This document shows, piece after piece, positions 2 to 58,957 of a stretch of 64,000 nt of DNA. The stretch is taken from assembly GCA_937871915.1 (NCBI GenBank), contig CALMPG010000095.1, forward strand, positions 1 through 64,000, written 5' to 3'. Numbering within the stretch: position 1 is the first letter of the stretch; every line of letters starts with the position of its first letter. Source of the DNA: an uncultured Phycisphaerales bacterium (GTDB lineage: Bacteria > Planctomycetota > Phycisphaerae > Phycisphaerales > UBA1924). Under the pieces are notes generated by a model, which was not told the DNA's origin, did not search any database, and was given only the letters and a program-made list of their open reading frames with translations. The position numbers and the translations under genes are program-made.

Positions 2-430
2 CGCGGCGGGGACGGCCCCGCGTCCCGCCGCGGGCGCGGGCCCGGGGAGCACGCCGCCCTGGAAACGCTGACTCCATCCGGTCGGCTCCTCGAGCTCCCG
101 TACCCGCCGAGTGTCAATCACATCTGGCGGCGCGTGGGCGCGAGAACCATCATCAGCCGCGAGGGCCGGCGCTACCGCACGGACGTGTGCGCCGCCCTCG
201 CGGCGATGCGAGTGGCGCGGATGAACGGGCGCTTGGCGGTGCGTGTCACGGTCTGCCCGCCCGATCATCGCCGGCGCGACATCGACAACGTGCAGAAGGC
301 GCTGCTGGACGCGCTCGCCAAGGGCGGCGCGTACCGCGACGACTCGCAGATCGATCGGCTGGAAGTTGAACGCGGCCCGGTGACGCCGGGAGGCAAGGTG
401 CTGGTGGAGATCACGGAGATCAATGCGTGA
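2..430 (+). CDS. RusA-like Holliday junction resolvase, 5' end outside window
   Basis: The frame is open from the first bases of the window, so the start lies upstream. From about position 62 it reads ETLTPSGRLLELPYPPSVNH, and the LPYPPSVNHIWRR stretch is typical of the N-terminus of the RusA family. Downstream the core DIDNVQKALLDAL and DDSQID segments carry the acidic residues that bind metal in RusA. RusA enzymes are small, usually phage-encoded endonucleases that cut four-way DNA junctions. A GTG at 134 would start too late, because it removes the conserved N-terminal motif. The gene sits ahead of a phage-type helicase, which fits a replication and recombination module. Confidence 0.82.
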   Translation, partial: RGGDGPASRRGRGPGEHAALETLTPSGRLLELPYPPSVNHIWRRVGARTIISREGRRYRTDVCAALAAMRVARMNGRLAVRVTVCPPDHRRRDIDNVQKALLDALAKGGAYRDDSQIDRLEVERGPVTPGGKVLVEITEINA

Positions 431-456: not shown

Positions 457-846
457 TCAGCGAGCAGTGGCTATCCGCAGTCGCGCAGTGATCGCGTCTT
501 CGTTGGGCAGTCCGCCCTCATACATTCGGCAGCCCATGCTCGGCGTCGTTGGAACAGGAAGCCCAAACAGGTCTCGTCCGTTCGCCAGCGCCGTCGGCGT
601 TGGGTATCCGCGACGGACGTCATGCTCGGGCAGTGCTTCCTGATCGACGTACACAACTCGCGCGCCGTCCACACGAGTGGCCGCCATCTGCACGCGCCGG
701 AGAAACTCTGGGGTGTTCGGACAGTCACCGAAACCCAGAACCTCAACTTGAATCATGGCCGCTCCCGTCTCCAGTACGTCGGGCGTCGAACGGCACGCCG
801 AAAGCGAGGCTGCCGCGAGCGTCAGGATCAATACGGTGACTCGCAT
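457..846 (-). CDS. Small lipoprotein, thioredoxin-like, possibly metal related
   Basis: This 129-residue protein starts at an ATG followed at once by a short hydrophobic signal and a lipobox ending LSAC, with Cys18 as the likely lipidated residue. A longer reading frame upstream would bury the signal, so this start is preferred. The mature part has a beta strand and a CPNTP motif (GFGDCPNTPEF), which resembles small thioredoxin-fold proteins found near mercury and other metal resistance genes. That family link is an impression, not a demonstrated match. The gene is on the opposite strand between two phage replication genes and fills the space between them, which is the usual position of an added cargo gene. 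Confidence 0.68.
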   Translation of the reverse strand: MRVTVLILTLAAASLSACRSTPDVLETGAAMIQVEVLGFGDCPNTPEFLRRVQMAATRVDGARVVYVDQEALPEHDVRRGYPTPTALANGRDLFGLPVPTTPSMGCRMYEGGLPNEDAITARLRIATAR

Positions 847-890
847 CAGGTGATTGTAGAGAGCGGCGTTCACGAAGTGGGAGTCCCCTG

Positions 891-2270
891 ATGGAGCTTC
901 GTCCCTACCAATCCGATGCCATCGCCGCGGTGTACGAGCACCTGCGGGCACGCGATGACAACCCGTGCGTGGTGATCCCCACGGGCGGCGGTAAGACGCC
1001 GGTGATCGCCACCATGTGCCGCGACGCGGTGTCTCAATGGAGCGGCCGCGTAGTCATCCTGGCCCACGTCAAGGAACTCCTCGAGCAGGCCGCCGACAAG
1101 TTGCAGGTGATTGCGCCCGATGTGCCCATGGGCATTTACTCGGCAGGTCTTAAGCGCAAGGACCTCGGCTACGCCGTCACGATCGCCGGCATCCAGAGCA
1201 TCTGGAAGAAGGCGTGCGACCTGGGCCCGGTGGACCTGATCATCGTAGACGAGGCGCACATGGTCCCCGCCGAGGACGACGGGATGTACCGCCAGTTCAT
1301 CGCCGACGCCAAGGTCGTCAATCCTCACGTCCGCATCATCGGGCTAACGGCCACGCCCTACCGGCTCAAGTCCGGCCCGATCTGCGCCGCCGAGAACATT
1401 CTCAACCACATTTGCTTCGAGGTCGGGGTCCGCGAGCTGATCGTGCAGGGTTTCCTGTCGCCCCTGAGGACGAAGGCGGGACTCCAGAAAATCTCCACCG
1501 ACGACCTGCACGTCCGCGCCGGAGAGTTCGTCGCCAGCGAGGTCGAGGACCTCATGGACAAGGACGGCCTGGTCGAGGGCGCCTGCGCCGAACTCGTTGA
1601 GCACACGAAGGACCGCAACGCCACGCTGATGTTCGCGTCGGGCATCCGGCATGGACAGCACATCGTCGAGGTGCTGAGGTCCAAGCACGGAGTTGAGTGC
1701 GGGTTCGTCTCGGGCGAGACGCCCTCGGGAGTGCGCAGCGCGATCCTCGATCGTTTCCGCGCTGGGGCGCTCAAGTACCTGTGCAACATGAACGTGCTCA
1801 CCACGGGGTTTGACGCCCCGCACATCGACTGCGTCGCGCTGGTGCGGCCGACGATGTCGCCCGGGCTGTACTACCAGATGGTGGGCCGGGGTTTCCGCCT
1901 GCACCCGGGTAAGGCCGACTGCCTCGTGCTCGACTTCGGCGGCAATGTCCTGCGGCACGGGCCCGTGGACGCCGTGCGGGTGGAGACGTTCGACCGCGGG
2001 GAGGGCGAGGCGCCGGCGAAGGAATGTCCGCAATGCCAGGCGTTGATCGCCGCCGGGTACCAGACCTGCCCGCAGTGCGGGCACCAGTTCCCGGAGCCGA
2101 GCAAGCAGAAGCACGAGGCGCAGGCCAGCACCGAGGGCATCCTCTCCGGACAGGCCACCCGCGAGGAGCACCACGTCAGCGAGACGACGTACCACGTCCA
2201 CATGAAGCGGAGCGACCCATCCCCGTCTATCAGTTCTCCGAGACGCACTACTTCACCAACGACCAGGTGA
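891..2270 (+). CDS. Phage-type DEAD/DEAH helicase, C-terminus replaced at a deletion junction
   Basis: Superfamily 2 helicase of 459 residues with PTGGGKT (Walker A) near the N-terminus, VDEAH (Walker B), GLTATPYR (motif III) and QMVGRGFRL (motif VI). A zinc ribbon with two CPQC pairs follows near residues 380-400. The ATG has a GGAG ribosome site about 8 bases upstream. Phage helicases of this type normally continue past YHVHxKR. Here, after MKRSD, the reading frame enters a different gene out of frame and stops about 18 residues later. The motor domains are intact, so the protein may still be made, but the native C-terminal domain is gone. Confidence 0.85.
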   Translation: MELRPYQSDAIAAVYEHLRARDDNPCVVIPTGGGKTPVIATMCRDAVSQWSGRVVILAHVKELLEQAADKLQVIAPDVPMGIYSAGLKRKDLGYAVTIAGIQSIWKKACDLGPVDLIIVDEAHMVPAEDDGMYRQFIADAKVVNPHVRIIGLTATPYRLKSGPICAAENILNHICFEVGVRELIVQGFLSPLRTKAGLQKISTDDLHVRAGEFVASEVEDLMDKDGLVEGACAELVEHTKDRNATLMFASGIRHGQHIVEVLRSKHGVECGFVSGETPSGVRSAILDRFRAGALKYLCNMNVLTTGFDAPHIDCVALVRPTMSPGLYYQMVGRGFRLHPGKADCLVLDFGGNVLRHGPVDAVRVETFDRGEGEAPAKECPQCQALIAAGYQTCPQCGHQFPEPSKQKHEAQASTEGILSGQATREEHHVSETTYHVHMKRSDPSPSISSPRRTTSPTTR

Positions 2271-2617
2271 CACCTTCGTACAAGGGCACGCTCTTCTCGC
2301 TCACCGGCAAGGTGAACACCGGCGCGTTCAAGGGGTTCCAGCCGGGCGAGGTCCTGTTCCTCGGGGCCTCGGGATCGCGGCGCGGCACCGATCCCGACGA
2401 CGACTGGGAGATCACGTTCCGGTTCGCCGCCAGTCCGAACGCCAGCGGGATCTCGGTGGGCAGCATCAGCGGCATCAGCAAGAAGGGGTGGGAGTACCTC
2501 TGGGTGCGGTACGCCGATCAGGAGGACACGGGATCGCACGCGATCGTGAAGCGTCCGGTCGCGGCGTATGTCGAGCGCGTGTATGACGAGGGCAACTTCG
2601 CTGGGCTGGGAATCTGA
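2216..2617 (+). pseudogene. 5'-truncated phage-like structural gene fused to helicase 3' end
   Basis: In the frame starting PIPVYQFSETHY this stretch encodes about 133 residues that align along their whole length with the C-terminal half of the 273-residue protein at 49978-50799 (VPVYQFAETHY at its residues 141-150). Shared blocks include PGEVLFLGASGS, WEITFRFAASPN, ISKKGWEYLWVRYAD and AAYVERVY. The first 140 residues are missing and no start codon lies near the junction. The remnant ends 3 bases before the next gene. I read it as the right side of a deletion that removed everything between the helicase and this gene. Confidence 0.8.
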
Positions 2618-2620
2618 ACG

Positions 2621-3649
2621 ATGGGTGACATGTTCCGCAAAGTCCGGTCGGGCTCACCGCTCCGCATCCCCGCGGCGGCGTACAACGCCTTCGTCGATGC
2701 AGCGGTCGATCTGCGCCGGCGGGAGCGGACCGCCAACGCCGGCCCGGCGCTCGAACCCGCGCAGCGCGGCATCGTGCTCGTCCGCAACGACTCCGACGAT
2801 GAGATCGAACCGTACCACGCGCTGGCGATCACGGGCGTGCTCGTCCAGCCCGACAGTGAGGACCAGGAACGGACGTTCCACAGTCGAACGCCACTGACGG
2901 CCGAGGTCGCCACGGAGGACTCGCCGTCGCTCTCGTTCGTCCTGGCACTGCAGCCGATCAAGCCGGGCGACCTTGGGCGGTGCGTGCTCACGGGCGTCAC
3001 GCCCGCGCGGGTCTTCATTACCAACGAAACGGACACGACCTGCGAGCTCGCCCCCGAGGAGACCGTGCTGGCAAGCACGCCCATGGGTGGCATCCCGATC
3101 CTGTGGAAGGAGGAAGGCGTCGGCGAGAAGTGGGCGGTCATCGAGATGGGCCAGCCGTCGCCGGGGCGCGTCACCGCGATCCTCGGCGCGGCGCAGCCGA
3201 TCCCCACCGAGAACAACCGCTGGCGCTACCCGTGGGTTGAGGCCAGGATTGACGGCGATCCCGGCAGCGACACCTACCTCCGGTACGTGCCCGTGCCGGA
3301 AGGTCTGACCTCGCAGCTGCCCGGTGGCGGCGAGGACCCGACGCGGCTGGCGATCAACCGCTTCGAAGCCCACCACATGAACAACTTCGACGCCGGGTCC
3401 GGCTTCGGTGGGCTGCTGGGTCTCGGGCCGGTGTGCGAGTTGCCGGGCGTGCTCCCCAAGTGCCCGCCTGCGCGGTCGCTCAAGCCAAAGCTCGTGCCCA
3501 TCCCCGAAGGTGTCTGCGTGCAGCTCACCTGCGAGCGCAACAGCAAGGGCAGGCCGGTGTGGGTGTTCGAGGCCATGAGCCTGATCGAGATCGCCGACCC
3601 AGCGGACGAGGACCGCAAGTTCAACATCTACATCGAGGGGGGCGCATGA
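2621..3649 (+). CDS. Phage-like structural protein, 342 aa (cassette A), function unknown
   Basis: Unrecognised protein that begins MGDMFRKVRSGSPLRIPA and is matched by the gene at 48956-49975, which begins MGDDLRKVRAGEPLRIPA. Conserved blocks shared by the two include AYNAFVDAA, ETVLAS, GEKWAV, WRYPWVEARIDGDPGSDT and INRFE.HH. There is no signal peptide and no membrane segment, and its position between a structural gene and tail-region modification genes suggests a virion or tail component. The stop codon overlaps the methyltransferase start by four bases (ATGA), which implies translational coupling. Confidence 0.68.
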   Translation: MGDMFRKVRSGSPLRIPAAAYNAFVDAAVDLRRRERTANAGPALEPAQRGIVLVRNDSDDEIEPYHALAITGVLVQPDSEDQERTFHSRTPLTAEVATEDSPSLSFVLALQPIKPGDLGRCVLTGVTPARVFITNETDTTCELAPEETVLASTPMGGIPILWKEEGVGEKWAVIEMGQPSPGRVTAILGAAQPIPTENNRWRYPWVEARIDGDPGSDTYLRYVPVPEGLTSQLPGGGEDPTRLAINRFEAHHMNNFDAGSGFGGLLGLGPVCELPGVLPKCPPARSLKPKLVPIPEGVCVQLTCERNSKGRPVWVFEAMSLIEIADPADEDRKFNIYIEGGA

Positions 3650-4257
3650 CCACGGCTCCCGTCACTGCAACCGCACCGACTCTGGATGCCCGCCGCGAGC
3701 ACGAGCGGAAGAAGTACGTCGCGCTGGCGTCGCGGCCCGCCGCGTCCGGCGGCGGGGCGGGGTACGGCTCGACCAACCACGGTGCGGCGGCGCTCCCGAT
3801 GGTGCAACGACTAAAGCCACGCTTCGTGGTGGATTTCGGGTGCGGGCGGAACAACTTCATCGGTGCTCTGCGGCGCGTCGGCATCGATGGCCTCGGCATC
3901 GACTTCGCCTTCCCCGAAGCGGACATCCCGCGGGCGATGCACAAGACCGGCCTCCTAGACGGCGTGGCCGACGTGGTGACGAGCTTCGACGCTCTGGAGC
4001 ATCTGCTCCCGGAGGATGTGGACGTGGTGCTCGCGGAGATGCGGCGCGTCGCACGCCCACGGGCACACTTCGTGTTCTCAATCTGCACGCGCCCGAGCCG
4101 GATGACGGTCGCCGGCGAAGGACTGCACCCAACGGTGAGGCCGCTTCCGTGGTGGCTGGAGCGCATTGGTCAGGTTGGCACGGTGACGGCACCGAAGGCC
4201 GAGGGTCGGTACATCGTCGGACGCTTCGCTGCCAAGGAGGGCTGCGGCTGTGCGTGA
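3646..4257 (+). CDS. Class I SAM-dependent methyltransferase (cassette A)
   Basis: 203 residues. The SAM-binding motif I is FVVDFGCGRNNF near residue 64, followed by GLGIDFAF (motif II) and FDALEHLLPEDVD (motif III region). Later segments FSICTRP and GEGLHPTVRP are shared with the paralogue at 48379-48963. The ATG used here overlaps the previous stop; a longer open frame upstream has no similarity to the paralogue. The substrate is unknown. Because it is always paired here with the MptE/DUF115-like gene next door, a small-molecule or glycan methylation role is possible, but this is inference. Confidence 0.85.
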   Translation: MTTAPVTATAPTLDARREHERKKYVALASRPAASGGGAGYGSTNHGAAALPMVQRLKPRFVVDFGCGRNNFIGALRRVGIDGLGIDFAFPEADIPRAMHKTGLLDGVADVVTSFDALEHLLPEDVDVVLAEMRRVARPRAHFVFSICTRPSRMTVAGEGLHPTVRPLPWWLERIGQVGTVTAPKAEGRYIVGRFAAKEGCGCA

Positions 4258-5152
4258 GAACCAGTCGGACATCGCGGCGCTCCAGGCGGGGCTGAAGGCG
4301 CGGAAGCCCGCGCGCGATGGCCTGCGCCTCTACACCGCCGACTTCGACTCGGTCTCCCTGGCCGGGTTCTACCGCGGGCGATCAGCGTTCTTGATTCTCT
4401 CGGGACCATCGCTCACCCAGGTGGACCTCACGCAGCTCAACAAGCGCGGCATCGTCACGATGGCCGTGAACAACGCGTGGTCGGTGCATCGGCCAACGCT
4501 CTGGACGTGTGTGGACGATCCGGGCCGCTTCATCGACACGGGCTGGAAGGACCCGGGCATCCTGAAGTTCGTGCCGACGTGCGCTTGGGACAAGCGTCTC
4601 CGCATACAGAACCCCGACGGCACCATGCGTAACAGCGCGTTCCGCGTCCGGCAGATGCCGAGTGTGCTGTTCTTCCGCCGCGCGGACCACTTTGACCATG
4701 AACGGTTCCTGACCGGAGATTCGGTCCCGTGGGGGAACGATGCCAAGCACGCGGACTCGCTCGGCATCACAGGCAAGCGAAGCGTAATGCTCGTGGCGCT
4801 GCGTCTGCTGCACCACCTTGGGTTCGGCACGGTGTACCTGCTCGGGTGCGACTTCAAGATGGCGGCCGATCGGAAATACGCCTTCGACGAGCACCGTGCC
4901 CCGAACGCCATCCGGCACAACAACGTCTTGTACGACTCGCTGGCCCGCCGATTCGAGGCCCTGCGGCCGCATTTCGATCGGCACCGCTTCCGCGTGATCA
5001 ACTGCTCCCCCGGCAGCGAACTCCTGGCGTTCGAGCGCATGGAGTTCGATGCGGCCGTCAAGGCCGCCTCCGCGGAGTGCGGCAAGCCCATCAGCACGCA
5101 GGGCTGGTACGAACCCAATCCGAAGCCGACACCACAGGAGGCCGCCCGATGA
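4250..5152 (+). CDS. MptE/DUF115-like protein, possible glycosyltransferase-type fold (cassette A)
   Basis: 300 residues from a GTG start that overlaps the methyltransferase end by 8 bases. It has a glycine turn FLILSGPSL after a beta strand, then TMAVNNAW, WTCVDDPGRF and, near the C-terminus, VYLLGCDFKM. This SGPSL ... NNAW ... DDP ... LLGCDF pattern is what I recognise from DUF115/MptE-like and related sialyltransferase-like proteins, which bind nucleotide or sugar-nucleotide ligands. The paralogue at 47499-48386 keeps all these motifs. The reaction is unknown. Its neighbours suggest that the pair modifies a surface or tail molecule. Confidence 0.62.
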   Translation: MRENQSDIAALQAGLKARKPARDGLRLYTADFDSVSLAGFYRGRSAFLILSGPSLTQVDLTQLNKRGIVTMAVNNAWSVHRPTLWTCVDDPGRFIDTGWKDPGILKFVPTCAWDKRLRIQNPDGTMRNSAFRVRQMPSVLFFRRADHFDHERFLTGDSVPWGNDAKHADSLGITGKRSVMLVALRLLHHLGFGTVYLLGCDFKMAADRKYAFDEHRAPNAIRHNNVLYDSLARRFEALRPHFDRHRFRVINCSPGSELLAFERMEFDAAVKAASAECGKPISTQGWYEPNPKPTPQEAAR

Positions 5153-6555
5153 GCGACGGCCCGACCCGGTACTACTTATACATCCCCGTGTGGGCGACGG
5201 GCCGGCCGCCCACGGGTGGCGGGTCGAGCAACTACTCGACACCCTCCGGCACAGACACGCCGGACAGCTCGTATGTCACACCCACGAGCACCCCCAGCAT
5301 GCCCGCGAGCTACTCGACCACGGGCGATGTGATCTACACGACCGGTCCGGGCGGAACGCCGACGCTGACGTTCTACACCACCGGTGCCTTCACGAGCAAC
5401 ACGCCGGGCACGACGCACACCCCCTCAAGCAGCGGCACCACCGACACCATGCCCTCGGGCTCCTCGGGTTCGAGCAGCGGAATGCCGAGTTCCTCAAGGT
5501 CGATGTCCTCGGGCGGATCGTCCTCGTCCGGGTCGCCTTCAAGCGGGTCATCGAGCAGCGGGTCCGGGTCCTCGAGTGCTTCGGGCTCCTCTGGTTCGGG
5601 CAGCAGCGGGATGTCGAGCGGCGCGTCATCTGGCGCGAGCAGCGGCACGAGTTCCGGAGCCTCGTCCGGCCCATCGTCCGGCGGCTCATCTGGCGGCGGA
5701 TCGTCGGGTGGCGGATCTTCCGGTGGTGGTTCCAGCGGGGGCGGTTCTGGGCCGGGCGGCAGCGGCCCCGGTGGAAGCGGCCCGGGTGGGTCCGGACCCG
5801 GTGGCTCAGGCCCCGGAGGCAGCGGCCCTGGTAGCAACTGCCTCCTGTTCGGCACGCTCGTGCGGCTCGAGGATGGCCGCCTCACGCCGATCGAGAACCT
5901 CAAGCCCGGCGACCGCGTGGCATCCATCCAGGTGCCCGGGCTCGAGGTCGATGTCCCGTACCGGGCCCAGTACAACTGGCTCTCGCATCACGGCCTGCAC
6001 GGCGCGAAGCCGGTCGCGGCCCGCGTTGCCAGCATCCGCCTCGGGGAACACCACGGCTTCATGGTCATCAACCGCCGCCTGAAGGCGACGCCCGAACACC
6101 CGTTCATGATCCGCCGCGGCGATGAATGGGGCTTCGCATCCGCCGAGTTCATCCAGCCCGGCGACTTCCTGATCGACGAGCACATGAACGAGGAAGAGGT
6201 CGATTCGGTCGTCCGGATCGACGCGCCGACACGCACCGTGGCCATCCACATCCCCGGAACGAACACGCTTCTGGCCGAGGGAGTCTGGGTCCACAACGAC
6301 ATGCCCGCCACGGCCCACAGCGGTTCGAGCGCCTCGTCGTCCGGATCGGCCTCGGGTTCCGGCTCGGGATCGGGGTCAGGGTCAGGCTCGACGTCTGGAT
6401 CGACCAGCGGCTCTTCCAGCAGCGGATCGTCGGGCAGCAAGTCCAGTGGGTCGTCCTCGTTCTCGACCTCCGGATCGTCCTCCGGCAGCGGCTCAGGCAG
6501 CGTGAGCGGGTCAAGCTCTGGTGGAACCGGTTCGGGGTCGGTTGTGGAGCAGTAG
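5149..6555 (+). CDS. Ser/Gly-rich protein with an internal Hint/bacterial intein-like domain (cassette A)
   Basis: 468 residues from an ATG overlapping the previous stop. The start RYYLYIPVWATG is shared with the gene at 46219-47502. Residues 60-230 are low-complexity Ser/Gly/Thr sequence ending in five GPGGS repeats. Residues 231-383 form a Hint domain: it opens NCLLFGTLV with Cys231 at the first position, has TPIENLKPGDRVAS and TPEHPFM blocks, and closes NTLLAEGVWVHN with Asn383. The Cys start, the TxxHP block and the His-Asn end are the residues used by inteins for self-cleavage or splicing. A second Ser/Gly-rich arm follows. I expect self-processing, with the role of the arms unknown. Confidence 0.82.
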   Translation: MSDGPTRYYLYIPVWATGRPPTGGGSSNYSTPSGTDTPDSSYVTPTSTPSMPASYSTTGDVIYTTGPGGTPTLTFYTTGAFTSNTPGTTHTPSSSGTTDTMPSGSSGSSSGMPSSSRSMSSGGSSSSGSPSSGSSSSGSGSSSASGSSGSGSSGMSSGASSGASSGTSSGASSGPSSGGSSGGGSSGGGSSGGGSSGGGSGPGGSGPGGSGPGGSGPGGSGPGGSGPGSNCLLFGTLVRLEDGRLTPIENLKPGDRVASIQVPGLEVDVPYRAQYNWLSHHGLHGAKPVAARVASIRLGEHHGFMVINRRLKATPEHPFMIRRGDEWGFASAEFIQPGDFLIDEHMNEEEVDSVVRIDAPTRTVAIHIPGTNTLLAEGVWVHNDMPATAHSGSSASSSGSASGSGSGSGSGSGSTSGSTSGSSSSGSSGSKSSGSSSFSTSGSSSGSGSGSVSGSSSGGTGSGSVVEQ

Positions 6556-45492: not shown

Positions 45493-45495
45493 CTG

Positions 45496-46158
45496 ATGGC
45501 GGCGTCCTCTCCAATGCCCGACCATGTGCTCGCCGTCTACAGTCGTGGCGACGACGCGGCGATCATCCACCCTCGGTGGCTGGATGACCAGAAGAAACTT
45601 GCAAACTTTTGCCCCAGATGCTCGCTTATTCAGCACAGACTCAATCGTCCATTGTACAGGCCGCGGTTCTTGCAGCTCCTACCTAGTCATATTGCCGAAT
45701 GTTCGAAGGGGTATTGCGTCATGCGCAAGACGCTTCTCAAGGTGCTGCAGCCAGTCCCCGACAGTTGGGTTGTGGATGTCGCGATCGAGTCCGCGACCGG
45801 GCTTGAGCATTCCCAACTTTGCTGCGTGTACCCGACCTATGTTCTTGACTCTCGGCCGCGCCGGATTGACATCGTGCAAGTGTGTTCTGGGTGTGGAAGG
45901 TACATGCTCGACGGGAAAACCAAAGAGACCGATTATCTCTTGAAGTACGAGATGAACCCCGGCGACCGGGCGTGGATCAATCTCGTCGGAACGCTGTACA
46001 TCCGCCCCGAAGATAAGCGATGGGTCCGGGATGTAGCCCCTGGAGCCTGGATGCCCCGGTACGAGGTCCTAGACAAGCCCCTGACCGGCCCCAGCTTCCC
46101 CCAGGATCCTCCGGATACTCCCGGGCCGAGCGTCGCGGAAGTGACCGTGCCGTGGTAG
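45496..46158 (+). CDS. Second Cys-rich protein after the toxin, possible second immunity or accessory protein
   Basis: 220 residues, starting 3 bases after the previous stop. It has CPRCSLIQHRL, a central KGYCVMRK and CSGCGRYML, again two Cys-x-x-Cys pairs. The layout (N-terminal Cys pair, central region, C-terminal Cys pair) is similar to that of the upstream gene, though direct identity is low by eye. A diverged duplicate of an immunity gene is one possibility. The coding sequence is again less GC-rich than the repeats. Confidence 0.45.
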   Translation: MAASSPMPDHVLAVYSRGDDAAIIHPRWLDDQKKLANFCPRCSLIQHRLNRPLYRPRFLQLLPSHIAECSKGYCVMRKTLLKVLQPVPDSWVVDVAIESATGLEHSQLCCVYPTYVLDSRPRRIDIVQVCSGCGRYMLDGKTKETDYLLKYEMNPGDRAWINLVGTLYIRPEDKRWVRDVAPGAWMPRYEVLDKPLTGPSFPQDPPDTPGPSVAEVTVPW

Positions 46159-46218: not shown

Positions 46219-47502
46219 TCATCCGATCGCGGTGCGAACGGTGCCGGACCAATGGCCGGAACTGTGGAACGAGGACCCGCTGTGCTTGCCGGAGCCGGAG
46301 TGAGAACTCGCGTGGCTCCCCGAGTGATGGCTGCCGGAGGCGCTGTGCGACCCCGACTTCATCGACGACTGCGCCGTCGCCTCCGCGGCGGCGTCGGACT
46401 GCCGCATCTGGCTGTAGTTGTCGTGGACCCAGATGCCCTCGGCCAGGAACGTGTTGGTGTCGGATACGTGGATCGAGACGGTGCTCACCTTCTCGTCGTA
46501 CCGCTCGATCGACTCGATCTTCTCCTCGCTCTGGTCCTCACGGACCAAGTAATCGCCGAGCTTGAGCAGGTCGGCAGAACAGAAGCCCCATTCGTCGCCG
46601 CGCCGCACCATGAAGGGGTGCTCGAAGGTGACCTTGATCCTGCTGTTGATCACGAAAAACCCGGTGTGCTCGCCGAAGGTGACCTCGGCCACGGTCGCGG
46701 ATCGGGGGACGCTCGTGGAGATGCCGAAGGAGGAGAGCCACTGGTACTGCGCCGGATAGGACGCATCGGTGGACATCCCGGTGATCTGGAGCGACGCGAG
46801 CTTGTCGCCGGCCTTGAGGTTCTCGATCGGCGTCTTGCTCCCGTTTTCGAGCTGCACGAGCGTGCCCAGGAGCAGGCAGTTGCTCCCTCCGCTGCCGCCA
46901 CCTCCTCCGCCCCCGCCGCCCCCTCCACCGCCCCCGCCACCACCCCCTCCGCCGCCCCCTCCGCCGCCCCCTCCGCCACCGCCGCCGGATTGGCCGCCAC
47001 TGCCTCCGCTGCCACCGGAGTAGCCACCGCTGCCGCCTCCTGAATGTCCCCCGCTCCCGCCAGAGAATCCGCCGGACCCCGAGTGCGGCAGTGACCCGGA
47101 GTGTCCGCCGGAGCCCGAGAACGGATGCGACGCGGAGTTGCCGCTGCTGTGCGCGCCGGACGTGTGCCCGCTGGAGCCTCCACCACCGGAGGAATGCCCC
47201 GAGGCGTGGCCGGAGCTCGCGTCCGACGACCGATCGCTGCTGCGCCCCGAGGATGCGCTCGTGCCGGACGAGGAATCGCTGCGCCCGGAAGAGGACCTCG
47301 ACGAGGCACCGCTCGAAGACGGCGAGCTCGATGAACTTGACGACGAGCTGGAGGAACTCGAGGAGCTCGAGGAACTGCTCGACGAGGAGCTGGACGACGA
47401 CGAGCTCGATGTTGAGCCCGAGGATGACCCGGACGAGCCCTGGCCTTGGGTCGTCGCCCACACGGGGATGTAGAGGAAGTACCGGCGGGGAGTGTCGCTC
47501 AC
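46219..47502 (-). CDS. Ser/Gly-rich protein with internal Hint/intein-like domain (cassette B)
   Basis: 427 residues from a GTG that overlaps the previous stop. It opens RRYFLYIPVWATTQGQ, as in cassette A. Residues 18-60 are almost all Ser, then mixed Ser/Gly/His sequence, then a run of 31 consecutive Gly ends just before the Hint domain, which starts at Cys209 (NCLLLGTLVQ). The domain keeps TPIENLKAGDKLAS and FEHPFMVRRGDEWG blocks and closes EGIWVHDN with His360, Asp361 and Asn362. In cassette A the closing order is VHN then Asp, so here Asp stands before the Asn. A second Ser/His/Gly arm follows. Confidence 0.82.
   Translation of the reverse strand: MSDTPRRYFLYIPVWATTQGQGSSGSSSGSTSSSSSSSSSSSSSSSSSSSSSSSSSSSSSPSSSGASSRSSSGRSDSSSGTSASSGRSSDRSSDASSGHASGHSSGGGGSSGHTSGAHSSGNSASHPFSGSGGHSGSLPHSGSGGFSGGSGGHSGGGSGGYSGGSGGSGGQSGGGGGGGGGGGGGGGGGGGGGGGGGGGGGGGSGGSNCLLLGTLVQLENGSKTPIENLKAGDKLASLQITGMSTDASYPAQYQWLSSFGISTSVPRSATVAEVTFGEHTGFFVINSRIKVTFEHPFMVRRGDEWGFCSADLLKLGDYLVREDQSEEKIESIERYDEKVSTVSIHVSDTNTFLAEGIWVHDNYSQMRQSDAAAEATAQSSMKSGSHSASGSHHSGSHASSHSGSGKHSGSSFHSSGHWSGTVRTAIG
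46894..46986 (-). repeat. Poly-glycine codon repeat, 31 consecutive Gly codons
   Basis: On the coding strand this is a near-perfect run of GGN codons just before the Hint domain of the cassette B protein. Mixed third bases (G, C, A, T) show that it is not one simple trinucleotide repeat, but slippage could still change its length. Read-through errors in such a stretch should be considered in any assembly. Confidence 0.85.
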
Positions 47503-48386
47503 TTCTTGGCCTCCTTGTTCAGCTCGTACCAACCCTGCGTGCTCACGGGCTTGGCGCACTCACTGCCGGCGCGGGCGACCGCGTCGGCAAACGCGATCCG
47601 GTCGAACGCGTCCAGCCCGCTGCCCGGCGTGGCGTTGAGCACCTTGAAACCGTGCGCCTCGAAGTGCGGCCGCAGGGCCTTGAACCTCTGCCGGAGCGAG
47701 TCGTACAGCACGTTGTTGTGCCGGATCGACTGCGGGGAGCGGTTCTCCGCGAAGGCGTACTTCTGATCCGCCCCCATCTTGAAGTCCGCGCCCAGGAGGT
47801 ACACGGTGCCGAAGCCCAGGTAGTGCAGCAGGTGCAGCGCCGCGAGCATGACGCTCCGCTTACCCTTGATCCCCAGCGAGTCGACGCTCTCCCCGTCCTG
47901 GCCCCAGTTCACCGTGTCGGCCTTCAGGAAACGCTGGTGGTCGAACTGGTCGTTGCGCCGGTAGAACAGCACGCCGGGCATCTGCCGCACGCGGAAGGCG
48001 CTGCTCGCCATCTTGCCCCCCGTGAGCTGGATGCGCAGCCGCCGGTCGAAGTGGGTCATCGGCACCAGCTTCAGAATCCCCGGGTCCTTCCAGCCGGTGT
48101 CGATGAAGCGGCCGGGATCGTCCACGCAGGTCCACAGCGTGGGGCGATGGACCGCCCAGGCGTTGTTGACCGCCATCGTGACGATGCCGCGCTTTCCGAG
48201 CAGCGACAGGTCGATCTGGCCGAGCGATGGCCCAGAGAGCATCAGGAACGCCGACCGGCCTCGGTAGAAATCGCACAGCGACACCGAGTCGAAGTCGGCC
48301 GTGTAGAGGCGCAATCCCGACCGCGCCGGCTTGCGTTGCTTGAGCCCCGCCTGGAGCGCCGCGATGTCTCCGCTGTTCTCACGCAT
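47499..48386 (-). CDS. MptE/DUF115-like protein (cassette B)
   Basis: 295 residues from an ATG; an upstream extension in the same frame lacks similarity. The motifs of the cassette A protein are kept: FLMLSGPSLGQIDL, TMAVNNAWAVHRPT, WTCVDDPGRF and VYLLGADFKMGADQ. It ends YELNKEAKK and overlaps the Hint gene start. A nucleotide-binding or sugar-transfer role is inferred from the SGPSL fold type only. Confidence 0.62.
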   Translation of the reverse strand: MRENSGDIAALQAGLKQRKPARSGLRLYTADFDSVSLCDFYRGRSAFLMLSGPSLGQIDLSLLGKRGIVTMAVNNAWAVHRPTLWTCVDDPGRFIDTGWKDPGILKLVPMTHFDRRLRIQLTGGKMASSAFRVRQMPGVLFYRRNDQFDHQRFLKADTVNWGQDGESVDSLGIKGKRSVMLAALHLLHYLGFGTVYLLGADFKMGADQKYAFAENRSPQSIRHNNVLYDSLRQRFKALRPHFEAHGFKVLNATPGSGLDAFDRIAFADAVARAGSECAKPVSTQGWYELNKEAKK

Positions 48387-48963
48387 TGTTGAACGTCCCT
48401 GTGATGTACCTGGTCGAGCCTGGTCCTTGGCCCACCCTCCCGACCTCATTGATTCGCTCGAGCCACCACGCCCGGGGCCGGACGGTTGGGTGCAGCCCTT
48501 CGCCCGCGACTTTGATTGTGCTCGGCCGCGTGCAGATCGAGAACACGAACCGCCCTCCCTCGACCCCGACCCGCCGCATCTCGGCGAGCACCTCGTCCAC
48601 CTCCTCGGGGAGCAGGTGCTCCAGGGCGTCGAAGCACGTGACCACGTCGGCAATGCCCGACGAGATCGGGACGCGGTGCATGGGCGCCTTCACGTCGGCC
48701 TGCGGAAAGGCGAAGTCGATGCCCAGCCCGTCCACGCCGCGCCTGCGCAGGTGCCGAACGAAGTCGTTGCGACCGCACCCGAAGTCCACGACGAAGCGGG
48801 GTTTGAGCCCGCGGACGAGGTCGTAGGCGAAGCGCCCGTGGTTGCTGGAGCCGTAGGTCGAGCGTGGGTCCGCCGCCAGCGCGAGGTACTTCTTCCGCTC
48901 GTGCTCGCGGCGGGCTTCGAGGTCGATCGGGGGGGCGGGAATGGCGGGCTTGGCGTCAGACAT
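48379..48963 (-). CDS. Class I SAM-dependent methyltransferase (cassette B)
   Basis: 194 residues. The N-terminal EARREHERKKYLALA segment matches cassette A (DARREHERKKYVALA). SAM motif I is FVVDFGCGRNDF, then GLGIDFAFPQADV and CFDALEHLLPEEVDEVL. The end shares ICTRPSTIKVAGEGLHPTVR with cassette A. It overlaps the MptE/DUF115-like gene by 8 bases and the 339-residue gene by 8 bases, so the order and coupling match cassette A. Confidence 0.85.
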   Translation of the reverse strand: MSDAKPAIPAPPIDLEARREHERKKYLALAADPRSTYGSSNHGRFAYDLVRGLKPRFVVDFGCGRNDFVRHLRRRGVDGLGIDFAFPQADVKAPMHRVPISSGIADVVTCFDALEHLLPEEVDEVLAEMRRVGVEGGRFVFSICTRPSTIKVAGEGLHPTVRPRAWWLERINEVGRVGQGPGSTRYITGTFNNA

Positions 48964-49977: not shown

Positions 49978-50799
49978 CTACAGCCCCAATCCAGCGAAGT
50001 TCCCGCTCTCGTACACACGCTCGACATACGCCGCGATGGGGCGCTTCACCAGCGCCTTGGCCAGCAGGTCAGCGTGGTCGGCGTAGCGGACCCACAGGTA
50101 CTCCCACCCCTTCTTGCTGATTCCGGTGATCCCGCCGATGGAGAGAGCCGTGCGGTTGGGGCTGGCGGCGAAGCGATAAGTGATCTCCCAGTCGGCGTTC
50201 TCGCCGAGCTGCACGCGCTTCGAGCCCGACGCGCCGAGGAACAGAACCTCGCCGGGCGCAAAGCCCTTAAAGGTGTCGCCGTTCACCTTCCCGGTCAGGT
50301 CGAACAGGATGCCCTTGTACGAGCCGGTGACCTGGGAGTCGGGCTTGTAGTGCGTCTCGGCGAACTGGTAGACGGGGACGGTGATATCCACACCCTCGAC
50401 GGCGTCGGGCGTCACGCCGATCGCGCCCTTGAAGTCCGGCGCTGTCTGTCCCGACGCCGGGAAGCGCCCGACCGTCTGCAGCGACTGCGTGATGTGCTGC
50501 GTGCCCCCGCCGGTGTCGAACGAGAACGTCGACTCCCCAGTCTGCATCTGGTTGGAGTTGTTCTCCTGGCCATAGCGCACGAGCCCGTCCCAGAGCTTCG
50601 GTCCCAGGGGCTCAACCTGCACGGACTGGCGTGGGAGGTTGGCGTAGTTGGCGGGGGACTCGGTCTCCAGAGCGTTGCGAGCGGCGATGTCGTCGTCCGT
50701 GCCGAGCACGACGAACGCGAGCTCCGCGGAGGAGTTGCTGCCGGTCACGGTCTTGACCAGCTTCCGCGACTCGAACTTCTCACGCACTTCAACCGACAC
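49978..50799 (-). CDS. Phage-like structural protein, 273 aa (full-length relative of the fragment at 2216)
   Basis: The protein starts MSVEVREKFESRKLVKTVTG. The first 140 residues have no counterpart in cassette A, which is truncated there. The second half contains VPVYQFAETHYK, PGEVLFLGASGSKR, YRFAASPNRT and ISKKGWEYLWVRYAD. It lies 12 bases downstream of the tape-measure remnant, consistent with a tail or baseplate protein, but no named family was recognised. Confidence 0.65.
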   Translation of the reverse strand: MSVEVREKFESRKLVKTVTGSNSSAELAFVVLGTDDDIAARNALETESPANYANLPRQSVQVEPLGPKLWDGLVRYGQENNSNQMQTGESTFSFDTGGGTQHITQSLQTVGRFPASGQTAPDFKGAIGVTPDAVEGVDITVPVYQFAETHYKPDSQVTGSYKGILFDLTGKVNGDTFKGFAPGEVLFLGASGSKRVQLGENADWEITYRFAASPNRTALSIGGITGISKKGWEYLWVRYADHADLLAKALVKRPIAAYVERVYESGNFAGLGL

Positions 50800-50811: not shown

Positions 50812-52104
50812 TCACGCGAACGCCAGGCCGCCGTTGGCGACCGCGTCCGCGACCTTCTTGGTGTTCTTCGCCGTCTGCTCGGTGGCCTTGGCCGTCCGAT
50901 CCGCCGCATCGCTCCCCGCCCCCAGCCCCGAGAGCGCTGCGGCGTTGAACGTGCCGCGCACGCTGATCTGCCGACCCATGAGGTCCGACAGGCTGGCGAT
51001 GCCGTCGTTGAACCGCGACATCAGATCGTCAGGTGTGCGGCCGGGGCCGGTCTGCGGCATGTTCTCGCGCTTGCGCTTGGCCTCGGCGATGGCGTCGGCC
51101 AGCCGCTGCTTGGCGGCCTCAAGGTCTGCTTGGCTCTGCGCCAGTTCCGCATCGGTCTTGTCCTTGAGTTCCTTCTGGGCATCCTCAAACCCCTGGCCGA
51201 TCTGGGCCATCGTGGCGTCGTGGATGTCGGCCGACTGCTTGCGGTCCATCGCCCGCTGCTTCTCGCGAGCATCCACATCCCGCTGGGCCTGGTTCTCCAG
51301 TTCGACCAGCCGGGACTCCAGCTGCTGGTCCACATTCTTCTTGGCGGCGTCGACATCCAGCCCGGAATCGAACAGGCCCTGGATCTCCAGCATCCGCTTG
51401 GCGACCCACGACGAGGCCTCCTCCCAGATCATCTGGAACCCGGTAGCGAAGTTGGTCCAGGTCTTGGAGAGGAACGCCGTGGTCTCGATCCAGGCGACCT
51501 CGAGGGCGTGGAAGACGATCTCCGCGGCCGCCAGCGCGCCGTACCACATGGAGTAGGCTGTCGAGACGAAGAACTCCTTCGCCGCCAGCCAGGCCTTGTT
51601 CAGCGCCGCCACGCCCTGCTGCCAGATGACCTTGAGGGCCAGCCAGAGGATCTCGGCCGCGAGAGCGATGTCCCCGGCGGCGAGTGCGTCAGCAATCCCC
51701 CCGACGACCTCGCTGACCCAGGCCTTGAGCTCGCCGAACTTGGCGCTGAGCCAGTCCAGGGCCTTGGAGCCCACGCCGGTGGTGATGACCAGCACAGTGC
51801 CGAGGGCCACAATCGCGGCGACGACGATCCCGATGGGCGAGAGCAGAGCCCCGATCACCGCGCCGATGACGCCAAAGACTGTTCCGATCCCAGTAATGAC
51901 TGCCGCGACCACACCGAGCGCCGTGCCGATGGCCCCGATGATCCACCCCAGCGCGATCAGTGCCGCGCCGGCGACGGCGATCGCGGCCGCCACCTTGAGC
52001 GCCCAGACAACCAGTTCCTTGTTCTGCCGGATCCACGCCGTCGCCGAGACGACCACGCGGGTGATCGTCTCGGCGATGGACTTGATAAGGGGAGCGAGCG
52101 CCGA
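50812..52104 (-). pseudogene. Tail tape-measure-like protein, N-terminus lost at a junction
   Basis: The frame reads LAPLIKSIAETITRVVVSAT and then two long hydrophobic stretches rich in Gly/Ala/Val/Ile (residues 20-90 of the remnant), a helical region with AALNKAWLAAKEF and a coiled coil (VDQQLESRLVELENQAQRDV). Hydrophobic helices followed by a long coiled coil are the hallmark of phage tape-measure proteins. No start codon is visible near the junction, and the upstream bases encode a different protein in another frame. Tape-measure proteins are usually much longer, so only the C-terminal part is present. Confidence 0.7.
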
Positions 52105-52354: not shown

Positions 52355-53224
52355 CTAAGGATTCAGCTTGGCGATATTGGCAGCCAATTCTGAGCCAGCA
52401 ACACGATGCTCTTCGTGCGGGCTGTTGTGCTGCATGCAGTCTGCGATGACCTGGTAGTCATGAAGCACCTGGTTGAGGCGCTTGAGATTGCCTTCGGCTT
52501 GAGGGTTGTTGACGTCCAAAACGCCACCAGAGTGTGAGGCTGCAGCGAGGTGTTTCAACGACTCGATGCACGCACCGAGGAGTCGTCCCGTGAATCGCTG
52601 AGAGGTGGTCTCGAAGAACTCCCCCTCAGTAATCTCGCGACGCAGGTGTCTGACAATGCCCCACACCGCGGCGTAGAGCTCGTCCATCACGGCATCTTCA
52701 GAGTCTTTCCCGGTCGACCAGAGCCGTGCGCTGTCCACGCTCTGGGCCTGCCCATGCTTTTGAGCCAAGTCAGCGAACTCGCACGACAAACGGACGATGT
52801 TTGTCCGAAACTGTTTGAAGCGTTCGTCGACCGCATGGCCGTGAAGGCGCTCGGTCAACAGTTCAAGCCGCGACGACGCCATTGCTGAGATCCACAGCCC
52901 AATCAGGACGAGCCCGGCAGTCACTTCAACCGCGGCAATCACTCGACCACACCCGATCGGCCGGATATCTCCGTACCCCAGGGATGAAATTGTCACAATG
53001 CTGAAGTAGAGACAGTCGCAGAACCCCGGTGACACCCCTTCCGAATACCCAAGCACCAATCCGCTCTTGAACGTGACGGCGATACGGAACGCCACGGCGG
53101 ACAAGAATGCAACGAGAACGAACGCGACAAGGTACTTCAGGCCCCATCGACGCCATATGCGCGATGCCACCCGCGGCCGCCGAATAACTGCATTTTGCTC
53201 CAACCGGGGTGCTGGCATGGGCAC
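52355..53224 (-). CDS. Two-transmembrane potassium channel-like protein within the mobile element
   Basis: 289 residues, or 287 if the inner ATG at 53218 is the start instead of the GTG. Transmembrane helix 1 is YLVAFVLVAFLSAVAFRIAV, the pore loop has the filter SSLGYGDIRP (TVGYGD-type), and helix 2 is AVEVTAGLVLIGLWISAMA. The C-terminal 170 residues are a soluble helical region with no clear RCK domain. It matches the Ion_trans_2 channel layout, so potassium flow is expected. It lies between regulatory and structural genes of a phage-like element, where such a channel is unusual. Confidence 0.75.
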   Translation of the reverse strand: MPMPAPRLEQNAVIRRPRVASRIWRRWGLKYLVAFVLVAFLSAVAFRIAVTFKSGLVLGYSEGVSPGFCDCLYFSIVTISSLGYGDIRPIGCGRVIAAVEVTAGLVLIGLWISAMASSRLELLTERLHGHAVDERFKQFRTNIVRLSCEFADLAQKHGQAQSVDSARLWSTGKDSEDAVMDELYAAVWGIVRHLRREITEGEFFETTSQRFTGRLLGACIESLKHLAAASHSGGVLDVNNPQAEGNLKRLNQVLHDYQVIADCMQHNSPHEEHRVAGSELAANIAKLNP

Positions 53225-53274: not shown

Positions 53275-53781
53275 TCAGCCCAGATACTGATCAAGATCCG
53301 CCCGGCGGAACGTCTCGCGGACGCGCTTGAGCGACGAGTCGAGCGTGGAGCGGGGCACTCCGCGGCTGCGGGCGACGCTGCTCACGGATTCACGGCGGAG
53401 CTCGTCGCACGCCTTCCGCAGGTCGGGCGGGAGATTGCTCACCGCGAGGTCCACGTCGATGCGCAGGGCGATGTGCCGGAGTTCATCGTCGCCGACGGGC
53501 TGGTCATGGCTGTCGGCGTCGAACGAGCGGGCGCAGCGCTCGGAGCCCGCGGCGCGGCGGAGCTTCCAGGCCTTCTGCTGGATCAGGTGTTCGACGAACG
53601 CGGCGGGCTTGCCTCGGGCGGGATCGAACCGCTCCCATCCGACGACCACCTCGAGCAGGAGTTCCTGCTCCAGGTCCTCGCGGGAGCAGGTTCGGATCAG
53701 GCGTCCGAGCTGGCAGGCCTTGATGCGGGCGAGTTTGCGGGCGAACTGCAGGGTCGATGGATCGATTCGGGGGGACGGCAT
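53275..53781 (-). CDS. Sigma-factor-like transcription regulator
   Basis: 168 residues from an ATG; the upstream frame extension lacks similarity. The segment LEQELLLEVVVGWERFDPAR followed by AAFVEHLIQQKAWKL resembles sigma region 2. The C-terminal half, with LPPDLRKACDEL and VARSRGVPRSTLDSSLKRV, resembles the sigma region 4 helix-turn-helix. It is short for a full sigma factor. It probably controls transcription of the structural genes of element B. Confidence 0.6.
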   Translation of the reverse strand: MPSPRIDPSTLQFARKLARIKACQLGRLIRTCSREDLEQELLLEVVVGWERFDPARGKPAAFVEHLIQQKAWKLRRAAGSERCARSFDADSHDQPVGDDELRHIALRIDVDLAVSNLPPDLRKACDELRRESVSSVARSRGVPRSTLDSSLKRVRETFRRADLDQYLG

Positions 53782-56403: not shown

Positions 56404-56883
56404 CTACACAGGTTTTCCACAACCACTGCCCCGAGCGACACTTACGGGCGTGCCTGGTTGGGGCGTTACCTTCAGATTCTCAGCCTGAATGCGGGCCCAC
56501 GCACGCCGCTGCTGGGTCCAATCGGGCGTACACGTCAGGGGACGCAGGACTTGCTCAGAAATCTTGCAGCGTCCCAGGGTCACCCGCGGCAGAAACAGGA
56601 TTTCCTCCTGGATGTCCGGCGCGAGATGGTTCAGGTTCATAATCTGGCTGACGCGTGCGCTGGTGACGTGGCCCGCCTTGGCGAGGTCGCTCTGGTTGCG
56701 CACCGCGCCGGTCGTAATGAGTCGATCGAACCTGATCGCCAGCGCCATGAGCTTGGAGATGTGCGGCGTGCGCCCCTCCGGCGGCGTCACCCTCGGCGGG
56801 GCTTCGCCCTCCTTGAGTTCGCGCCGCGTCTTGGGCCCGCGCGTCAGATGGACTTTGAACGTCACAGTTGCGCCGTCGGGCAT
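56404..56883 (-). CDS. Small HTH protein downstream of serine recombinase
   Basis: 159 residues from an ATG; a longer frame upstream lies within the recombinase gene. The middle contains a helix-turn-helix of the form NQSDLAKAGHVTSARVSQIM, ending NLNHLAPDIQEEILFLP. The partner of a recombinase gene in this position, with this APDIQEEILFLP pattern, is common in planctomycete and proteobacterial mobile elements. It overlaps the recombinase stop by 22 bases. A regulatory role is plausible. Confidence 0.7.
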   Translation of the reverse strand: MPDGATVTFKVHLTRGPKTRRELKEGEAPPRVTPPEGRTPHISKLMALAIRFDRLITTGAVRNQSDLAKAGHVTSARVSQIMNLNHLAPDIQEEILFLPRVTLGRCKISEQVLRPLTCTPDWTQQRRAWARIQAENLKVTPQPGTPVSVARGSGCGKPV

Positions 56884-58421
56884 GGTGGGATCTCCTTGGC
56901 CAGCCATTCGTTCTCCGCATGAAACGTGATGCTGATCTCGCTGGCCGCGCCATCGAAAGTGATCTTGCTGATCAAGAGCTTGAGGAACGCCGCCTGCTCG
57001 CGGGTCGTGAGCGCGCTCCATAACGGCTCGAACTCGGCCATCGCCGCCTCGGTCTCCTCCCGCCCGACGATCTTCTGGCGGAGGCGCGCGACGTCGTCGT
57101 CAATCGTCAAGAGCCGCCTCCGCGCCAGGCGCTCGCGGCCGTCGATGTCCGCCAGTCTCGCCCGCGCCGCATCCGTGCCGGCCCCCTCGACCGTAAGCCG
57201 TTTCGTCTCGACCGCGTTCCACTGGCATTCACGCTGCAGGGCCCGCCGCTCGACCTCAAGCGCCTCGATCTCCGTCCGGTCCTGCCGCTGCGCGTGCTCC
57301 ACCACCAGCCGAACGAGCTGCCGGTCGCGCCCAATCGCCTTGATGCGGCCGACGACGAACTGCTCGAGTTGGTCGGCGGGGATTGATTTGCTGTCGCAAC
57401 GGTCGTACCCGCGGTCCTGCGCGTGCGAGCAGACGTAGTAGCGGTATCGTTTGGCGTTTTGGGTCGAGAACGAGTGCAGCATGTGGCGGTTGCAGCCCTT
57501 GCACCACAGCAGCCCTTTGAGCAGGGAGCCGTGCATGTTGTTGACCTCCGACCCGCCGGTCACGGCGTTGAACCGGAGCTTGGCCTGCACCAGATCCCAA
57601 GTCTCATTGTCGACGATCGCCTGGTGCTCGCCGTCGTACACATCCTTGTGGTGCGAGACCTTCCCGATGTAGAGCACGTTGGTGAGCATGGTGTAGAGCA
57701 GGGTGCGGTTGATCGCCAGCCCGCCGATGGCGCGCCCGTCTTTGGTCGTCCACTTCTTGGTCGTCCAGCCGCGTTTCTCCAGGTCGTTGACGACGCGACG
57801 GATGGTCTCGCACCGCAGGTACGTGCGGAAGACCTCTCGCACTTGGCAGGCCTCCGCCTCGTTGACGACGAGTTTGCCGCCCACGTTGTCGTAGCCCAGC
57901 ACGGGCCGACCACCCGCGTACTTGCCCCGCTTGCGGGCGGCGGCGATCTTGTCCCGCGTCCGCTCCGAGATAATCTCCCGTTCGAACTGTGCGAACGAGA
58001 GCAGGATGTTCAGCGTCAGCCGTCCCATCGAATGGGTCGTGTTGAACTGTTGGGTGACGGAGACGAACGACACCTTGTGCCGGTCGTACACCTCCATCAT
58101 CTTCACGAAGTCCGTCAGGGATCGCGAGAGGCGGTCCACCTTGTAGACCACCACGCAGTCCACCTCGCCGGCGGCGATGTCGTTCATGAGGCGGCGCAGC
58201 GCGGGGCGCTCCATGTTGCCGCCCGTGAACCCGCCGTCGTCGTACTTCGTGGGGAGGCACACCCAGCCCTCATTCTTCTGGCTCGTGATGTACGCCTCGC
58301 CGCTCTCGCGCTGGGCGTCCAGCGAGTTGAACTCCTGGTCGAGCCCCTCCTCGCTGCTTTTGCGCGTATAGATCGCGCAGCGGATGCGGGGCGTCGGCGG
58401 CGTGGATGCACGCCCGCTCAT
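56862..58421 (-). CDS. Large serine recombinase
   Basis: 519 residues. The resolvase domain begins CAIYTRKSSEEGLDQEFNSL, with the Ser of YTRKSS as the catalytic nucleophile, and continues through DDGGFTGGNMERPALRRLM, VVYKVDRLSRSL and ISERTRDKIAAARKRGK. A recombinase domain with two Cys pairs (CKGCNRHML and CSHAQDRGYDRC) and a coiled-coil region complete the large-serine-recombinase layout. It should integrate and excise element B. Its stop is overlapped by the HTH gene and its start by the DUF2924 gene. Confidence 0.92.
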   Translation of the reverse strand: MSGRASTPPTPRIRCAIYTRKSSEEGLDQEFNSLDAQRESGEAYITSQKNEGWVCLPTKYDDGGFTGGNMERPALRRLMNDIAAGEVDCVVVYKVDRLSRSLTDFVKMMEVYDRHKVSFVSVTQQFNTTHSMGRLTLNILLSFAQFEREIISERTRDKIAAARKRGKYAGGRPVLGYDNVGGKLVVNEAEACQVREVFRTYLRCETIRRVVNDLEKRGWTTKKWTTKDGRAIGGLAINRTLLYTMLTNVLYIGKVSHHKDVYDGEHQAIVDNETWDLVQAKLRFNAVTGGSEVNNMHGSLLKGLLWCKGCNRHMLHSFSTQNAKRYRYYVCSHAQDRGYDRCDSKSIPADQLEQFVVGRIKAIGRDRQLVRLVVEHAQRQDRTEIEALEVERRALQRECQWNAVETKRLTVEGAGTDAARARLADIDGRERLARRRLLTIDDDVARLRQKIVGREETEAAMAEFEPLWSALTTREQAAFLKLLISKITFDGAASEISITFHAENEWLAKEIPPCPTAQL

Positions 58422-58957
58422 GCCGACACCGCCTCGGTGGGAGCCTGGCTGGCGGCTGGGCGGTTGCCCCGATCAATCCCGAAGAAGCGGTTCCCATTCC
58501 AGTGGTTGCCCGTCGCGGCATTGGCAACCGCCGAGAGCGACCGGTAGACGCGGCCTTCCCACTCGAACCCATCGGCGCGGACGAGAACCACGAGCCGCGT
58601 TCCCTTGTAATCCTTGGTGATGATGGTGCCGACGGCCGGGCGGGCAAACTTTGGGGGCTGGCGAAAGGCACCGATCGCCGCGACCTCGGGGGCGAGCGGC
58701 GTGGGCGCGAGGGGCCGTTGGGACGGGGCCCGCACCCGCAGGTCCGCGTCGTTGGCCAGCGCGTCGGCGCGGAGGCGGGCGCGTTCCGTCAAACCACCTT
58801 CAGCGTTGGCCTGCATGCGCCACGCCACACGCTTGAGCAGGTTCTCGCGGTTGTTGGTCGACGGCTCCTCCCCGTAGACCTCGATGTACTTGTCCTTGAG
58901 CTCGCTGGTCCGTAGGTTCACCAGCGCCCGAATCTGTGCCGACAATCGTCCGTTCAT
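58418..58957 (-). CDS. DUF2924 protein
   Basis: 179 residues. The N-terminal helical part has LRTSELKDKYIEVYGEEPS and RENLLKRVAWRMQANAEGGL, and the C-terminal half has TIITKDYKGTRLVVLVRADG, YRSLSAVANAATGNHWNGNR and FFGIDRGN, which are the DUF2924 hallmarks. This family usually sits next to a large serine recombinase. The function is not established, but DNA binding or target handling for the recombinase is possible. Start and stop overlap both neighbours. Confidence 0.85.
   Translation of the reverse strand: MNGRLSAQIRALVNLRTSELKDKYIEVYGEEPSTNNRENLLKRVAWRMQANAEGGLTERARLRADALANDADLRVRAPSQRPLAPTPLAPEVAAIGAFRQPPKFARPAVGTIITKDYKGTRLVVLVRADGFEWEGRVYRSLSAVANAATGNHWNGNRFFGIDRGNRPAASQAPTEAVSA

Follow-up and report, generated by a model that had tools for sequence, protein, structure and literature searches.

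The window analysed here, the first 64 kb of a 72,027 bp contig (C95) in a metagenome assembly of 4.24 Mb and 208 contigs, raises the question of why the same genes should occur in the same order, in opposite orientations, at both ends of a ~40 kb block. The two cassettes (A, coordinates 2216–6555, rightwards transcribed; B, 46219–50799, leftwards transcribed) share the gene order g1, g2, methyltransferase, MptE-like, Hint. The preliminary description suggested a long-lived cassette with its own role. Gene content and phylogeny make it highly probable instead that A and B are defective prophages that inserted independently and belong to a single temperate, siphovirus-like family of Phycisphaerales phages, and the five genes are the distal end of this family's late operon, situated directly after the tape measure gene. 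The resemblance of A and B is real, and its cause is ordinary.

The paired proteins are alike yet diverged, as first described, with 46–73% identity and dS values of 0.7–0.95 (Table 1), and the cassettes share 68–73% DNA identity (blastn, E down to 0). The common order and the inversion are also borne out, although A encodes only the C-terminal 133 of the 273 residues of g1, such that four and a half genes rather than five are repeated. The short gene overlaps reported to be preserved are so in part: from the ORF coordinates, the methyltransferase and MptE-like genes overlap by 8 nt and the MptE-like and Hint genes by 4 nt in both cassettes, but the g2–methyltransferase overlap is 4 nt in A and 8 nt in B, and g1 and g2 do not overlap, being separated by gaps of 3 nt and 2 nt in the two cassettes. 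Two related prophage-type elements do flank the block of metal-efflux, secretion and RHS genes, with the right end of A 0.7 kb from a CzcCBA operon.

Table 1. Genes of elements A and B in the 64 kb window (aa, amino acid identity; nt, nucleotide identity; C18 and C202, prophages on other contigs of the same genome).
Element	Feature	Coordinates	Strand	Matches and relatives
A	RusA-like, phage early module	134..430	+	88% nt to C18 prophage; homologue in the same place in all intact prophages
A	Foreign insert (~467 bp) between RusA and helicase, lipoprotein/thioredoxin-like ORF	457..873	-	Absent from C18
A	Phage DNA helicase, truncated, ~residues 1-442 of 561	891..2217	+	84% nt to C18 up to 2218
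A	g1, C-terminal 133 aa only, fused to helicase by deletion	2216..2617	+	69.9% aa to B over 133 aa, 93% to C18
A	g2, 342 aa, conserved gene after the tape measure, fold unknown	2621..3649	+	45.9% aa to B over 329 aa, 95% to C18
A	SAM-dependent methyltransferase	3646..4257	+	PF13489 E 6.2e-10, PF08241, phrog_24759; 63.2% aa to B over 193 aa
A	MptE-like/DUF115-like (sialyltransferase-like)	4250..5152	+	phrog_4603 E 1.3e-11; PF01973 weak, E 0.007
A	Ser/Gly-rich protein with intein-type Hint domain	5149..6555	+	PF13403/PF07591 weak; Cys1, TxEHP, VHND motifs; 49.5% aa to B over 418 aa, a value raised by Ser/Gly low complexity (good alignment in the Hint domain proper)
B	Ser/Gly-rich Hint protein	46219..47502	-	PF07591 E 3.5e-5, below cut-off; terminal HDN instead of HND
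B	MptE-like	47499..48386	-	72.5% aa to A over 295 aa; AlphaFold pTM 0.84; Foldseek matches to viral MptE-like proteins
B	Methyltransferase	48379..48963	-	PF08241 E 2.1e-10
B	g2, 339 aa	48956..49975	-	45.9% aa to A
B	g1, 273 aa, full length	49978..50799	-	65% to C18/C202 copies
B	Tape measure protein, residues 235-663 of 664 (C-terminal 429)	50812..52101	-	68% aa to intact tape measure protein
B	Potassium/ion-channel gene at deletion junction	52355..53170	-	PF07885 E 3.3e-11
B	Sigma-70 region-2-like, phage left module	53275..53781	-	PF04542 E 5.1e-6; same position in G038-1 and own contig C168
B	Three left-module genes	54037-55062, 55401-56291, 56404-56883	-	Order next to the serine recombinase shared with intact G038-1 and with other hosts
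B	Large serine recombinase (integrase)	56862..58421	-	PF00239 E 6.1e-37, PF07508, PF13408
B	DUF2924 protein, left end of element	58418..58957	-	PF11149 E 1e-39

Intact elements of the family are ~32 kb long and of the temperate tailed-phage type, with the five genes at the 3′ end of the late operon. The gene order begins with tyrosine or serine integrase, ATPase, DUF669-like, RusA, helicase, Prim-Pol primase and ParB/N6-methylase, and continues with TerL, lambda-type portal, capsid/protease, tail tube, tape measure, g1, g2, methyltransferase, MptE-like and Hint; some lineages have two Gly_transf_sug (DXD) glycosyltransferase genes after the Hint gene. Gene families were taken from a reference element (G086:C1:3.074–3.107 Mb) and its relatives, which contain an integrase (phrog_1), DNA helicase, Prim-Pol primase, ParB/N6-methylase and TerL (GpA nuclease) as well as the lambda-type portal, capsid/protease, tail tube and tape measure. 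The window's own genome has further copies of the cassette on contigs C18, a complete prophage extending from a tyrosine-integrase homologue to Hint, and C202, complete from the helicase (at the contig end) to Hint. The closed genome G038 has three intact elements and one remnant, and closed G086 has three intact elements. Terminase, portal, capsid, tail tube and tape measure genes lie in a syntenic late operon in the family and in C18. An integrase is located at one end (a serine recombinase in B, a tyrosine integrase in G086-1 and a homologue in C18), and this module has been swapped between the tyrosine and serine types across the family. No convincing attL/attR direct repeat was found among eight elements.

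The five-gene order recurs in other planctomycete genomes, at ~100 host loci, nearly all of which have an operon running from the major capsid protein through the tail tube and tape measure to g1, g2, methyltransferase, MptE-like and Hint, with the cassette last. Most searches for relatives covered 101 genomes; the 79 loci from GTDB genomes are overwhelmingly labelled Phycisphaerales/Phycisphaerae. Among 63 IMG/VR contigs with the MptE-like gene, 62 have the capsid-to-tape measure, g1, g2 and methyltransferase genes upstream as far as the contig reaches. The genes are thus the end of a continuous phage late operon, and a long-lived cassette with its own role is not supported, although that idea is unproven rather than disproven. 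The MptE-like gene was found in no isolate phage in INPHARED. Copy number ranges from 0 to 7 per genome, with different insertion sites even in related genomes. Left halves of related prophages are present on own contigs C168 (L248), C75 (L249) and C189 (L250), such that this genome holds at least five family elements; C202 and C189 possibly belong to a single prophage, with the break between them in the helicase gene. In a relative in G008 (L161, 11412–13610), g1 is followed by two Hint genes, and g2, the methyltransferase and the MptE-like gene are missing; these three are thus replaceable.

Element A is best understood by alignment with C18, which it matches through the helicase to position 2218, the match resuming in g1 at 2217 with 20,613 bp deleted. 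The stretch from the helicase to the middle of g1, ~20.6 kb, is therefore missing from A. The two sides of the junction at ~2217 have a few bases in common, and the reading frame that precedes g1 is that of the truncated helicase (a full-length helicase homologue matches phrog_16, E 1.6e-97). The left end of A lies off the contig. There is a small residual chance of misassembly at the junction, which lies only 2.2 kb from the contig end, as the MAG contains many related prophages. RusA and helicase are 3 nt apart in C18, without the insert present in A. The best relative found for the insert ORF is a gene of a metal island in G038 (54% amino acid identity), and its match to NCBIfam NF049942 (DF family (seleno)protein) is weak and below the cut-off (E 0.0018). 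A C-terminal truncation of the A Hint gene was considered and dropped, as the viral contig L147 has the same SVVEQ ending.

Element B contains a left module as in an intact G038 prophage, then the ion-channel gene, part of the tape measure gene, and g1 to Hint. Homology to the tape measure stops at 52101 (the intact protein matches phrog_8462, E 3.7e-44), and B has lost everything between the left module and the middle of this gene. No homologue of the ion-channel gene was found in other prophages. Terminase, portal and capsid genes are absent from both A and B, so neither five-gene end is expected to yield particles alone, and a search of the own genome for TerL and capsid found only the C18 and C202 genes, so the central parts lost from A and B do not lie on other contigs of the assembly. 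A 3264-aa RHS-type ORF (34781–44575) directly adjoins the right end of B, and two small ORFs downstream of it (44542–46158) are without Pfam matches.

How the pair arose is addressed by the MptE tree, in which A groups with C18, C202, G017 and G038_2624k (support 100/97), and B is in another clade with G004, G022 and G086 (93/91). The shared order, opposite orientation and 40 kb spacing might be read as one cassette duplicated and inverted, either within the chromosome or by the assembler, and then diverged. However, the two clades are shared with other genomes, A being closer to C18, C202 and even the G038 copies than to B; dS between A and B exceeds that between A and C18 (0.33–0.59); and the elements differ in their flanks and breakpoints. 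The tree refutes an inverted duplication, which retains next to no probability, and an assembly duplication, the outcome that would have undone the preliminary description, is excluded by the nucleotide identity of 60–75%, the tree and dS. The inverted pair thus reflects two independent insertions. Cassette pairs in other genomes are in the same orientation, 31–81 kb apart, and the inverted bracketing geometry is therefore not conserved.

That the retained ends are wrecks of prophages rather than units in their own right has to be weighed against the finding that the methyltransferase–MptE–Hint end, or its last genes, persists in at least seven remnants that differ in their breakpoints: A; B; G038-3 and L231, both cut in g2; L212, cut before the methyltransferase; and two in G070, with MptE-like and Hint only. 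With intact reading frames and low dN/dS in A and B, these might represent a domesticated, self-standing cassette kept by selection (e.g. for host-surface modification or superinfection exclusion), of which A and B would be two copies. This is unlikely. The loci were found by searching with MptE, which guarantees retention of that end, and closed G086 also holds an early-region fragment without the cassette; in a count of remnants anchored on the left module, most copies run off contig ends. The breakpoints are scattered (helicase/g1, tape measure, g2, before the methyltransferase, in or before MptE), the pattern expected from random internal deletion, and the cassette lacks upstream structural genes only in such visibly truncated remnants. 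Values of dN/dS for A against C18 and C202 are 0.04–0.17 with no relaxation of selection, but these mostly record selection on the phage lineage before truncation, not on the remnant itself.

A related reading, somewhat less likely again, is that deletion derivatives with an integrase end and the right arm (B, G038-3, L231 and perhaps G070) are maintained minimal elements, either satellites that intact relatives such as C18 would mobilize, or units of lysogenic conversion in which the methyltransferase, MptE-like and Hint arm alters the cell surface. G038-3 also carries non-phage genes of the restriction/HTH type. At L044 (12187–27200; G038:C1:2.768–2.783 Mb) a prophage derivative has an integrase module and the right arm, with HTH, ImmA-like and other large genes and a small TerL fragment between them. 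It is very improbable that the elements, instead of being active temperate phages, are a gene transfer agent or a phage that has become fixed and domesticated. The presence of many related copies in a genome and the lack of an isolate are compatible with domestication, but integrases, primase and terminase are present, copy number and insertion sites vary, the integrase module is exchanged, and the family is not single-copy, vertically inherited and integrase-free as a gene transfer agent should be. Interpreted as defective prophages, the apparent repeated cassette becomes an entry to a well-sampled family of uncultivated Phycisphaerales prophages, and several intact and decayed copies per genome make it useful for the study of polylysogeny in a phylum with few known phages.

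The proximity of prophages and metal genes is not restricted to the window. The right flank could be read at 67 GTDB loci: at 17 of these, one of the two nearest genes is of the Cop/Cus/Czc type, and at nine the nearest gene is a convergent copper ATPase gene whose stop codon overlaps or is ≤13 nt from the last phage stop codon (the overlap is exactly 12 nt in five loci, and recurs identically in several genomes). Phage right ends that abut a convergent copper P-type ATPase gene at its 3′ end are seen at L184, L186, L198, L210, L211, L212, L220, L223 and L242, and also at L120 and G086:C1:263045 and 324796. In closed G038 and G086, there are six such ATPase genes, and 4/7 right ends are within ~100 bp of one of them; by a rough, after-the-fact estimate, the probability of this by chance is very low. 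This abutment corresponds either to an attachment site or to phage-linked cargo. The copA 3′ end was considered as attB and set aside: the copA genes beside the phages are complete, which leaves the two indistinguishable. The recurrence points to an integration hotspot in metal-resistance islands, which may explain the neighborhood of prophage and metal genes in the window, but neither window element sits at a copA 3′ end. At L154 (6866–6950) and L158 (4950–5016; own C189) another block, the internal phage genes on the reverse strand upstream of TerL, likewise adjoins copper ATPase 3′ ends directly. A second recurrent right flank is a convergent cluster of genes of ~323–337, 367–416 and 387–394 aa next to the phage end (L185, L190, L191, L194, L204, L208, L234, L246, L066 and L075), followed at L066 and L075 by 253 and 520 aa genes and then CopA.

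In siphoviruses, the distal tail is usually encoded just downstream of the tape measure gene, and by position g1 and g2 would be distal-tail or adhesion-device proteins. Neither has a Pfam or NCBIfam match, with at best weak matches to unnamed PHROGs in a few members; a structure model of g1 was of too low a quality to be informative (pLDDT 55). PDB sequence and fold searches with the MptE-like protein, g1 and g2 gave nothing significant, the MptE-like protein having weak sialyltransferase-like matches. PF01973 scores 16.6 bits against the A MptE-like protein (gathering cut-off 34.6) and does not match that of B, and Foldseek with the B model finds viral MptE-like proteins, several so named, with E down to 2.9e-9 and 13–19% identity. 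The MptE-like fold and weak sialyltransferase signals, together with the methyltransferase and Gly_transf_sug genes, suggest a role in sugar modification, at the surface of the virion or of the host, for the methyltransferase, MptE-like protein and DXD glycosyltransferases.

The Cys and EHP motifs are present in nearly all of 74 Hint sequences, with A ending in HN and B in HDN, and the arms flanking the domain are ~35–60% Ser in most copies. The residues needed for self-cleavage being present (conserved Cys1, TxEHP and His-Asn), the Hint protein may cleave itself and present its Ser/Gly arms, possibly as a sugar acceptor; cleavage in B may differ given its terminal HDN motif. Glycosylation of this protein is an attractive guess, with a Ser-rich acceptor encoded beside sugar-modifying enzymes. 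Most likely, then, the five genes encode distal-tail proteins, sugar- and methyl-modification enzymes and a Ser/Gly-rich Hint protein.

The family, recognized here from its genes alone, resembles temperate siphovirus-type prophages (Caudoviricetes) in module order, in its head, packaging and tail families (lambda-type portal, GpA-like TerL, capsid-protease and Phage_tail_2 tube) and in its integrase, but differs in that the g1 and g2 genes following the tape measure are without a named family, and in a right arm with methyltransferase, MptE-like, Hint and glycosyltransferase genes. Its TerL is at best ~30% identical to those of isolate phages. There is a weak match of the capsid to Mu gpT and ~27–30% TerL identity to some Mu-like phages, although integrases are found instead of a MuA-type transposase. 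Most Hint copies share with BIL and PT-HINT domains an N-terminal Cys, a TxxH-type block and a C-terminal His-Asn, the last being conserved in A-type BILs (review PMC7765530), but the family's domain sits between Ser/Gly-rich arms in a phage late operon, with Pfam scores below cut-off and HDN in B. The MptE-like/DUF115 proteins of uncultured marine phages have a similar fold, with sequences only 13–19% identical. Phage-ZRK32 of Poriferisphaera heterotrophicis (reportedly 21.9 kb, extrachromosomal and chronic; eLife RP89874), set beside the family by description only, is likewise a phage of a Phycisphaerae planctomycete, in that case with a cultured host.
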